The notes under the pieces were generated by a model. It searched no databases. It was not told the origin of the DNA and saw only the letters and a list, made by a program, of their open reading frames with translations. A DNA stretch of 58,419 nucleotides, taken from positions 1-58,419 of the IMG/VR virus record IMGVR_UViG_3300006028_000013, one strand, 5' to 3'. The stretch comes from a virus. This document shows, piece by piece, positions 1,627 to 5,342 of this stretch (position 1 is its first letter; every line of letters begins with the position of its first letter). A program made the translations under genes and the position numbers.

Positions 1627-3297
1627 TTAGACTTCGTCGACCTGGAGCAGCGCGAGTCGGTGGCGGAACATGTCGACGAGCATCTTGCCGTCTTCGCCCT
1701 TCTCGACTTTGTCGGCCCATTCGAGGATCTGGCCGAGCGAGTTGTGCAGCTCTTTGAGTCGCGAGCGCATGCCGCTGTTCAGCCGCGCGCCTTTCTTGGT
1801 GTCGATGCCGGTGCGTTCCATCGCGAGGCGATCCTTGGCGATGTCCGCGACGCACTCATCGAGCTTGTAGCCGACGATCAGGAGCGCGGCGGCCGCGCCT
1901 TCCGACCATTCGGGTGCGTGCGAGTCGATGCCGTGATACTCGGCATACGCGTGCGAGCCGAGGTGTGCGACCGACTTGGCGGCGATGTCGCGTGCGATGG
2001 GGTCCTCGCCGTCTGCCACGGTCTGCGCGTGGCTGAGCGCGTGCGCAAGGTGCTCCGCGTCGATCGTGCCGTCGTGGTTGTGGTGCGCATAATGGCGCGC
2101 GGCACGCGGCACAGTGCGGCCGGTGTCGTCCTTGGCCGACAGGCCGTTGCCCTCGATGTGGGCGAAGGCGTCGTCTGGGAGCAACGCGACGAACGCCGCA
2201 TCCCACGGCTGAGTGTTCTGCGGCATACGTTTTGTCTCCTGGCGTGTGAGTGATTTCCCGGCGCCGGCCGCTTTCGCGACCGCGGAGTCCGGCGAGACTT
2301 CGATATTGAGTGAGCGCGCGCGCGCGACGATCTTCTTCGCGGCCGCGGTTTTCTTGGCGTCCGACTCGAACTGCGTCTGGTCGAACCGCGACATGGCAGC
2401 GCGCACGTGCGCGGCATCGCCGATGGGCAGATGGCCGCGGCCGTTGGAGTCGATGTAGGCGTAGTCGCTGCGGCCGGACGCGCCAGGGCGGCTCGTGCCG
2501 GGGTCGTAGCCGGCGGACGGCGCCGCTTTTTCGGTGGCTTCCTTCGACGGCACATACGCCTGGTCGACGGCGACGGGCGTGCCGAGGACCGGCTCCTTGT
2601 TGGCGTCGAGCTGGTAGGGGATGTCGTAATACGTGGAGTCTTCGTCGCCCATCATCTGCGGGCCCATGACGCACACCACGACGTGCGTCGGGAACGTGGC
2701 CATGACGCACACGTCCATGACGCCGAGCGCTTCTTCCGCGGCATCCTCGAGATCGTCGATCAGGTCCTCGTATGAATCGTCATAGGTGATGACCTGGCCG
2801 AGTACCGAATCCTTCTTCGCCTTCACACCCGTCATTTGTGCTAGGGGGTTCGCAGCAAAATCCGGGGAGGCAAGGAAGCTGTACTCGACCAGGTCAACAT
2901 CGGTGAGGTGGCGCACGCCCTTTTCCATCGTTGAGCCACCGGGCGCGACGCGGTAGCCGATCGACATGCCGAGCGTCTTGCCACGACTGAGCCGACGCCG
3001 CGCAACTTCCAGTAGCGCATCACCGTCAGCCGTCGCGTAAATCGAGGTCGTCGTTAGCAGACCGTTCGCGTCGGCGCGCATGGAGATCGGCTCGCCGACC
3101 GGGAGCTTGCTGGAGTCGTGGCCGATGAAGGCGACCACGTCGTGGTTTTCCTTGATCGAGCGGTCGAACGCCTTGGGCTCGATCACATCGCCGGTTCTGT
3201 CGCGGTTCAGGAACGCAGCCGCATAGCCTTCGATCAAGCGCTGCGAGGTATCGACGTTTTTGACTTCGAGCCTCGTAAAGAGCCTTTGTGGATCCAA
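1627..3297 (-). CDS. HK97-type prohead protease with long C-terminal extension
   Basis: The N-terminal ~170 residues match the S78 prohead protease family: a GHDSSKLPVG segment carries the probable catalytic His, a GMSIGY segment the probable Ser, and VEYSFLASPDF follows. The protein continues for another ~380 residues, far longer than a stand-alone protease. This extension holds an acidic stretch, a YAYIDSNGRGHLPIGD module known as a separate small phage family, and a helical tail. The start was set to TTG at 3297 (556 residues) because a perfect AAGGAGG lies 8 bases upstream; the frame stays open further but without a ribosome site. The extension may act as a fused scaffold, which is inference. 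Confidence 0.9.
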   Translation of the reverse strand: MDPQRLFTRLEVKNVDTSQRLIEGYAAAFLNRDRTGDVIEPKAFDRSIKENHDVVAFIGHDSSKLPVGEPISMRADANGLLTTTSIYATADGDALLEVARRRLSRGKTLGMSIGYRVAPGGSTMEKGVRHLTDVDLVEYSFLASPDFAANPLAQMTGVKAKKDSVLGQVITYDDSYEDLIDDLEDAAEEALGVMDVCVMATFPTHVVVCVMGPQMMGDEDSTYYDIPYQLDANKEPVLGTPVAVDQAYVPSKEATEKAAPSAGYDPGTSRPGASGRSDYAYIDSNGRGHLPIGDAAHVRAAMSRFDQTQFESDAKKTAAAKKIVARARSLNIEVSPDSAVAKAAGAGKSLTRQETKRMPQNTQPWDAAFVALLPDDAFAHIEGNGLSAKDDTGRTVPRAARHYAHHNHDGTIDAEHLAHALSHAQTVADGEDPIARDIAAKSVAHLGSHAYAEYHGIDSHAPEWSEGAAAALLIVGYKLDECVADIAKDRLAMERTGIDTKKGARLNSGMRSRLKELHNSLGQILEWADKVEKGEDGKMLVDMFRHRLALLQVDEV

Positions 3298-3332
3298 GGA
3301 CAGAGCCTCCTTACGAGGTGGAATCGGGTGAA

Positions 3333-3419
3333 TCTCTCGCGGCAGATTGATAAGTCTCTCGCGGCAGATTGACACCTTATATAAGGGAATATAAGGTGGG
3401 TGCTGTGAGGGAGGGCCGG
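3333..3419. promoter_or_regulatory. Divergent promoter/operator with direct and inverted repeats
   Basis: Between the leftward protease gene and the rightward gene at 3420 lie two identical 18-base copies of TCTCTCGCGGCAGATTGA (3333-3350 and 3355-3372). They are followed by an inverted repeat CCTTATAT/ATATAAGG (3376-3383 and 3390-3397). The second direct repeat runs into TTGACA at 3369, which with TATAAG at 3390 resembles a sigma-70 promoter with a short spacer. The layout suggests a regulator-bound promoter for the rightward islet. The regulator is not known. Confidence 0.55.
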
Positions 3420-4040
3420 ATGGCTCCTGTAGCAGCAACGAGCAATGGCAAGGCGACCGAGACAGTGGTTCTGATGGAACTGCCGAAACCCGATCTGCGC
3501 ACCGTGACTGTGCGTCTCGTTGGGACCTCGCCACTTATCAGCCACCGATGGGCCGACAAGGCTAAACAGCAGATGCTCGATAAGCAGATGAAACGCGCGA
3601 AGGTTGCAAAAGAAGCGAAGGACCCAGTACAGGACTATCGTGATTCGCTGTATCCGTTTCCAGGCGGCGGCTACGGATTTCCCGCGGTGGCATTCAAGAA
3701 TGCGGCGGTGAGCGCCTGCACACAAATCAGTGGCGTAACCAAGGTGATGGCGCGCGGCGCATTTCACGTGATCGCGGATGACAAGGACACGGGCCTCGTC
3801 AAAATCGATGGCGAGCCGCGCCAGCGCCAGGACATGGTCCGCATTGGCATGGGGACGGCAGACATTCGATACCGCGGTGAATTCACCGAATGGAGATGCA
3901 CACTGACGGTGCGTTACAACGGCGGCGTCATCAGTTCCGAAATGCTGGCGAACCTTTTTCAGCACGCCGGCTTTTCTGTAGGCGTTGGTGAATGGCGACC
4001 CGAGAAGGATGGAAGTTACGGGATGTTTGAACTGGCATGA
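3420..4040 (+). CDS. Conserved phage protein of unknown function
   Basis: 206 residues; the ATG at 3420 follows a GAGGGAGG ribosome site. I recognise the pattern from other phage hypotheticals but no function: a TSPLISHRW segment near residue 40, a lysine-rich helical stretch, GGGYGFPAVAFKNA, MARGAFHV, and a glycine-rich end VGVGEWRPEKDGSYG. Its stop overlaps the next start (ATGA), so the two are probably co-translated. It is transcribed against the surrounding head genes from its own promoter region. A nucleic-acid binding role is possible but unproven. Confidence 0.75.
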   Translation: MAPVAATSNGKATETVVLMELPKPDLRTVTVRLVGTSPLISHRWADKAKQQMLDKQMKRAKVAKEAKDPVQDYRDSLYPFPGGGYGFPAVAFKNAAVSACTQISGVTKVMARGAFHVIADDKDTGLVKIDGEPRQRQDMVRIGMGTADIRYRGEFTEWRCTLTVRYNGGVISSEMLANLFQHAGFSVGVGEWRPEKDGSYGMFELA

Positions 4041-4549
4041 GCTATGAGGCAGTAGCACCGCTTCCTGTGCGGAGTGACGTGCCGATCGATGTCATCGGTG
4101 AAGCGATTGAGTCGATCAAACGGGAACTCGGCGTACCTGTTTGCCCAGCAGACGAATATGTTGATCGCGCACGGCCCGAGAACTCACCTATCCATGGGAC
4201 GCTGACATGGGATGATGCGGTACTTGCTGAGCGCGCACGGCGGGAGCAGGCGCGCCTGATTATCCGCGTAGTCGTGCGCACCAGTAGCACCGACGAGCTC
4301 CAAACGTGGCGCAATGTCCACATCACCGTCAGAAGTGACGATGGGGAACTCGTAGAGGGCGGCGCAAGTGTTGCTGATGTGGCGCCACGCAGTGATTTGC
4401 GACAGCAGGTGCTACGCGAATTGTTAGCCCGAGTGCGGGGTGATGTGGAAAACCACGGTTGGCTGACGGAAACGCAGCCGATTCTGAACGCCATTAAAGA
4501 CGTCGAACGCGTCTATCTAAGCGAACACGCGCCGCTGATGCCCGTGTAG
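4037..4549 (+). CDS. Conserved phage protein paired with the upstream gene
   Basis: 170 residues, starting inside the stop of the preceding gene. An ENSPIHGTLTWDDAV segment followed by a helix rich in Glu, Arg and Ala (about residues 45-75) resembles a family of phage hypotheticals that I recall only by pattern. The C-terminal half is helical. No catalytic motif was seen. The pair forms a two-gene operon that reads into the pentanucleotide repeat tract. Confidence 0.7.
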   Translation: MSYEAVAPLPVRSDVPIDVIGEAIESIKRELGVPVCPADEYVDRARPENSPIHGTLTWDDAVLAERARREQARLIIRVVVRTSSTDELQTWRNVHITVRSDDGELVEGGASVADVAPRSDLRQQVLRELLARVRGDVENHGWLTETQPILNAIKDVERVYLSEHAPLMPV

Positions 4550-4556
4550 TCTAGCC

Positions 4557-4962
4557 GTGTCCTTGGCTAGGCAAGCCGGGGTATGGCGCGGCATGGCAGG
4601 CGTGGCTTGGCCCGGTGCGGCTTGGTAGGTTTGTGTGTGGCAGGGCATGGCAGGCATGGTTCGGCTAGGCTCGTCAGTGCAAGGCTCGTCTTGGTGCGTT
4701 AGGGCGCGGTTTGGCAGGCAGGGCGGGGTTCGGTAAGGCGTGTTTAGGTGCGGCTCGGCTTGTTTCGGCATGGCAGGCAAGGCCCGGTCTGGCGCGGTAC
4801 GGCGTTGGTCTGGCGGGTCGTGGCAAGGCAGGCGAGGCTCGGCAAGGAACGCTGGGCGCGGCGCGGCGCGGCGCGGCGCGCCTGGCTTGGCAGGGCGTGG
4901 TTCGGTCTGGTTGGGCAAGGTACGGCGCGGCGCGGCGCGGCGCGGCGCGGCAGGCGTGCGAA
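4557..4962 (+). repeat. Degenerate pentanucleotide (GGCNN)n tract
   Basis: About 400 bases without a convincing gene, built from roughly eighty units of GGCNN (for example GGCAT, GGCAG, GGCTT, GGCGC), with two purer (GGCGC)n runs near 4860-4880 and 4925-4951. The strand is very G-rich and A-poor. Because GG pairs recur every five bases, the top strand or its RNA could fold as chains of two-layer G-quadruplexes. Long open frames here are artefacts of the period. It lies between two rightward genes and is probably transcribed with them. Confidence 0.9.
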
Positions 4963-5142: not shown

Positions 5143-5342
5143 GGCTTCGGAATGAGCGCCGTCGTCGCGTAGCCCGGCGCGTCCGTCGTTTCGATCCAGA
5201 TCGCGTTCCGCGCCAGTCGCCACCGGTCGGACACATCCGGCCAGTCGTGCACGGTCTGCAGATGCCGCTGGATGCGCATGACGACCGCTGCATCGCCCTC
5301 GAGCGGCGCACCGCAGATCCCGCAGCGCCAGCTACCCGTCAT
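5139..5342 (-). CDS. Small C2H2-like zinc finger protein
   Basis: 67 residues with CGIC near the N terminus and HLQTVH about 18 residues later, a spacing that could bind one zinc ion. The rest has a WRLARNAIWIETTDAPGY segment. It lies directly downstream of the portal gene in the head operon and is probably translated from the same mRNA. Function unknown. Confidence 0.6.
   Translation of the reverse strand: MTGSWRCGICGAPLEGDAAVVMRIQRHLQTVHDWPDVSDRWRLARNAIWIETTDAPGYATTALIPKP

Follow-up and report, generated by a model that had tools for sequence, protein, structure and literature searches.

A five-base GG tract in a phage head-gene block is very likely the guide-RNA array of a VIPR system

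What purpose is served by a tract in which GG recurs every five bases on one strand, in the middle of the head genes of a phage? The tract lies in the 58,419-nucleotide viral sequence analyzed here (IMG/VR record IMGVR_UViG_3300006028_000013; "the window" refers to this whole stretch). An earlier note had proposed that it could form chains of two-layer G-quadruplexes, and that it might serve in packaging, replication or recombination as a signal, or be an RNA element. Here, we describe the structure of the tract, the genes next to it and the sequences that it appears to recognize, and we conclude with high confidence that it encodes an array of guide RNAs (vrRNAs) belonging to a VIPR system that the phage carries.

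A five-base array in an islet that sister phages lack

The period-5 GG tract is real: it occupies positions 4565 to 4952 on the + strand with a chain score of 92.5. Dinucleotide shuffling of the whole window (60 shuffles) gave scores no higher than 12, and shuffling of the tract alone (300 shuffles) no higher than 17. The regular one-strand GG that the earlier note had seen is thus confirmed, although the tract ends at 4952 rather than at 4962. Parsing yielded 74 five-base units, with G at the first position in 70 of them, G at the second in 63 (T in 8), and C or T at the third in 71, followed by two variable bases. Since the third base is a pyrimidine and the second G is replaced by T in about one-ninth of the units, the GGCNN originally proposed is better written as GGYNN, or G(G/T)YNN, although the five-base period itself stands. 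Tandem Repeats Finder, a check that the note had suggested, detected little of the tract because the NN positions vary, and it recovered only two short GGCGC runs. These runs, at 4855 to 4879 and 4924 to 4948, each consist of five identical units and carry no guide information; they are possibly slippage products, hinting at the way in which arrays grow.

The window array is broken every ~50 to 60 bases by four-base units, mostly GGCA, that shift its phase. Six GGCA slips were parsed on the + strand, the first at 4595 to 4598 and the others starting at 4649, 4713, 4772, 4827 and 4949. A predicted RNA hairpin (CTAGCC...GGCTAG, 4551 to 4570, + strand) lies just upstream of the array and overlaps its start.

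The tract is the last part of an islet (3297 to 4952, + strand) that also contains two genes, here called A and B, and that is flanked by the genes for the prohead protease and the portal, which bears out the placement in the head-gene block. The comparison of this locus with that of related phages, as the note had advised, revealed that the whole islet is absent from sister phages. Relatives L177 and L181 align to the window up to 3296 and again from 4953, with only ~22 bases between, and the junction is clean in both. At the same position, a third relative, L179, carries a different sequence (4622 to 4848) that reads like a LuxR-type helix-turn-helix (HTH) gene, which suggests that the islet position is a point of exchange. 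No credible Rfam match was found within the islet.

Genes A and B and their relatives in other phages

Gene A (3420 to 4040, + strand; phrog_4652) connects the islet to VIPR, a CRISPR-like system carried by phages whose description rests on a single preprint from April 2026 (PMC13142463). As described there, VIPR combines a RAMP protein encoded by the phage with an accessory gene (vap) and with guide RNAs of alternating GGY and NN; in the system of the Escherichia phage SUSP1, the NN bases pair with DNA, one target base is skipped and GGY stays unpaired. The gene A family profile matched PDB entry 36pp_D, "SUSP1 Vipr protein," with an E value of 4.4e-10, while the window protein alone matched it at 4.7e-4, and hhalign of the profile against the SUSP1 gene gave a probability of 96.9%. 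An AlphaFold2 model of the protein (pLDDT 82.8) resembled Csm3 and other Cas7-like RAMPs, which have an RRM core (Csm3: Foldseek, 1.5e-5; VIA-align Z, 11.0). Based on this homology and the modeled structure, we assign the gene A product as a Vipr protein with a predicted RAMP fold. Its reading frame opens at TTG 3369, and the first ATG, at 3420, is the likelier start. Just upstream, positions 3325 to 3375 contain a direct repeat, TCTCTCGCGGCAGATTGA, and a palindrome, CCTTATATAAGG, a stretch that is possibly an operator or promoter region; a scan for promoters and terminators gave results at chance level.

Gene B (4037 to 4549, + strand; phrog_15946) is a candidate accessory gene because it occupies the position of vap and adjoins gene A in nearly all of the loci described below. 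The model of its product had a pTM of 0.41 and structural matches with Z scores of at most 4.2, and so no fold was assigned. Both PHROG families are annotated as being of unknown function, both genes have intact and conserved reading frames, and PADLOC matched neither of them. Given these PADLOC results and that the tract consists only of five-base GGYNN units, with no identical repeats separating unique spacers, the earlier view that it is not a CRISPR array was correct, as was the view that it is not a protein repeat.

A search with distant DNA similarity identified comparable tracts in Mycobacterium and Gordonia phages, next to gene A and gene B homologues. When viral contigs were scanned for gene A, 80 loci were obtained. 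In 60 of these 80, a tract scoring at least 20 was found on the strand of gene A, whereas no tract was found on the opposite strand, and none of 124 unrelated loci had one. Among the loci without a tract call, a dozen that were inspected had short arrays, and a few stop at a contig edge. The tract may precede gene A, lie between the two genes or follow gene B. This stable linkage, combined with a variable order and a constant strand, suggested that the tract encodes an RNA acting together with the gene A protein. The unit composition was similar across 65 arrays (4,146 units, with G in 96% at the first position, G in 86% and T in 11% at the second, Y in 94% at the third, and N at the last two), GGCA accounted for 329 of the 507 four-base units in the family, and the distance from slip to slip peaked at 10 to 11 units.

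Several loci have features of their own. In Mycobacterium Cheoctovirus and in Gordonia phages UmaThurman and ODay, gene A and B homologues accompany GGCA-punctuated arrays as in the window, but the order is array-A-B or A-array-B, and the module is inserted either in the early region or next to the gene for the tape measure protein; the products are annotated only as hypothetical proteins. In ODay (L211, 2980 to 4697), the module separates the tail assembly chaperone gene from the tape measure gene and has two HTH genes as neighbors, and thus insertion into a late-gene block occurs elsewhere too. Annotated genes also overlap arrays: Philus gene 52 (L004, 3005 to 3937) begins within its array, and UmaThurman gene 40 (L005, 2881 to 3204) is an open reading frame (ORF) almost entirely on the array. 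In a group of loci with short arrays (L026, L033, L051, L063, L070, L071 and others), three elements are conserved: GGAGCCGG..GGCTGGC..GGATC and GAGAGTT.C.TACAACC, which immediately precede short guides, and CTGCCA..TG.GGA.G.AA.GCGAAC, which is upstream of gene A; none of the three belongs to an Rfam family. Pseudomonas phage vB_Pae_LESphi2 (L212, 2094 to 2395) has yet another layout, in which GGYNN guides separated by hairpin-like sequence lie upstream of a distant gene A homologue. Rfam scans of 14 related loci, and of L070 at a lax threshold, returned nothing credible; the hammerhead-interspersed arrays mentioned in PMC13142463 were not seen in these scans or in that of the islet.

Guides, targets and the one-base-skip code

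The GGCA slips divide the window array into guides of ~10 NN pairs, all on the + strand: g1 (4599 to 4648; GT TT CC GC TT AG TG GT AG AT), g2 (4653 to 4712; AT TC TA TC AG AA TC TT GC AG GC TT), g3 (4717 to 4771; AG GG TC AA GT TA GC TC TT TC AT), g4 (4776 to 4826; AA CC CT GC AC GT CT GG GT AA, with one six-base unit), the irregular g5 (4831 to 4883), which includes five identical GGCGC units, and g6 (4884 to 4948; TT AG GT TC CT TG AA AC, followed by five GGCGC units). We scanned viral contigs with guide seeds under the one-base-skip rule. The g4 seed matched six contigs among 2.9 million, and two of these, L177 and L179, are close relatives of the window phage. In both, g4 matched 20 of 20 bases in frame within the prohead protease gene (Pfam PF04586), counting GT for its single six-base unit, and the skipped base fell on the codon wobble position. 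The match to a third relative, L182, was 18/20. Other skip lengths reached only 13 to 14 matches, and shuffled guide orders reached at most 16. In contrast, the window's own copy of the site (2821 to 2850, - strand) matched at 15/20, with central mismatches, and no site with three or fewer mismatches to g4 was found in the window.

g4 is the only window guide for which a convincing target was found. Candidates for g1 (18/20 in the L157 integrase gene) and g2 (22/24 in a terminase-like gene of L140) are weak and could be explained by chance. A second g2 seed never extended beyond 4/8, and genome scans gave no target for g2 and seven chance-like matches for g1. No match with three or fewer mismatches to g1 or g3 was found in 50 related phage records, and the viral scans with g3 and g6 returned chance-like, mostly AT-rich matches and no convincing target.

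The skip rule was also examined across the family by comparing 279 guides to 2.58 Mb of DNA, most of which came from phages that carry VIPR. With a one-base skip, three guides matched without mismatch and three with a single mismatch, whereas skips of 0 and 2 gave no match at 0 to 1 mismatches, and neither did four shuffles. A skip of 3 gave 34 such matches, as would be expected where unmasked arrays match themselves; we read them as probable array self-matches. Beyond these, only the one-base skip produced near-perfect matches. Two L063 guides (5176 to 5340) matched the VIPR-bearing contig L026 (at 2296 and 4884), one of them in the sequence encoding the gene B motif GLIRSVVAIY, echoing a remark in PMC13142463 that other VIPR systems are among the targets of some guides. 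Two more guides, from L038 and L032, matched gene B-like sequence with two mismatches. The slips delimit guides, since for both g4 and the first of the L063 targets the match extends over the units lying between one slip and the next.

Probably another VIPR type, and the alternatives

Taken together, the homology of gene A, its predicted RAMP fold and the GGY/NN composition of the units strongly suggest that the tract is a VIPR guide array, so that of the ideas first offered, the RNA element was the right one. The islet shares with the SUSP1 system (PMC13142463; PDB 36pp; KT454805) a homologous Vipr protein followed by a small gene, guide units of GGY and hypervariable NN, and targets that are decoded by skipping one base, in most cases the wobble base. 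It differs in that each SUSP1 guide is followed by a structured tail, whereas the window array is continuous, cut by GGCA slips and without a 3' tail between guides; array architectures are said to vary, with staggered overlapping arrays mentioned, in the same preprint. Moreover, the identity between the Vipr proteins is low, and gene B, although in place and conserved, has no detectable sequence relation to the SUSP1 gene at the same position, the only accessory gene with which it was compared. Because gene B holds the accessory position but is unrelated to its SUSP1 counterpart, the window locus probably represents another VIPR type. Class 1 CRISPR-Cas systems resemble it in the RAMP fold of their guide-binding proteins (Csm3/Cas7) and in the RNA-guided recognition of foreign DNA or RNA; the window system differs in lacking a repeat-spacer array, in having no cas genes that we could find, and in its noncontiguous pairing code.

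Could the tract instead be a structural element of DNA or RNA, whose two-layer G-quadruplex chains signal packaging, replication or recombination? Two-layer motif starts do outnumber those in shuffles (63 versus 32), but this excess arises because GG recurs every five bases, no three-layer motif is present, and quadruplex-aware folding of g1 to g4 and g6 as RNA gave only ordinary hairpins. A structural signal would also leave unexplained the hypervariable NN bases with their decoded targets, the link to a RAMP gene and gene B on a single strand and the split between GGY and NN, and the tract is absent from sister phages; we give this reading, which the earlier note had raised, almost no credence.

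Two further possibilities accept the array but not its action on rivals. The islet might be a relic whose guides are no longer active, as the irregular g5, the slippage-like GGCGC runs and the lack of a found target for most guides could imply; however, both genes still have open and conserved reading frames, g1 to g4 retain the GGY frame, and g4 still matches relatives exactly, so that decay has only a very slim chance of being correct. It is slightly less improbable, but still highly unlikely, that the array regulates the phage's own genes, such as the prohead protease: the gene with the g4 site is indeed present in the window phage, but its site has 5 mismatches in 20, in the middle, and for the other guides, the best self-matches do not exceed those obtained with shuffled guides.

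We therefore return to a VIPR array directed at other phages, for which the SUSP1 work provides a model. Transcription of the islet on the + strand would cover gene A (Vipr), the accessory gene B and the array, the RNA would be processed into guides of about ten NN separated by GGCA units, and Vipr subunits would coat it along its GGYNN units to form a ribonucleoprotein. In each unit, the two N bases would pair with DNA, one target base being skipped and GGY left unpaired, and binding would repress the bound gene. For g4, this gene would be the prohead protease gene of islet-less sister phages, which it matches exactly, and by the same analogy the most likely function would be repression of a morphogenesis gene of competing close relatives in the same cell. 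More tentatively, and with rather less than even confidence, we suggest a VIPR type beyond those characterized, with tail-less continuous arrays, GGCA slips as guide ends and a phrog_15946 accessory unlike that of SUSP1, which would silence the morphogenesis gene of islet-less sisters while central mismatches protect its own copy.

The recovery of the noncontiguous guide code from other data, by comparing skip lengths, provides computational support for a system known from one preprint. The gene pair phrog_4652 and phrog_15946, together with the array signature, can be used to find such loci in catalogued phages, where they are listed as hypothetical proteins. Since attacker, target, self-protected copy and empty site are all in hand in one natural case, the idea that VIPR drives conflict among closely related phages can be put directly to the test.
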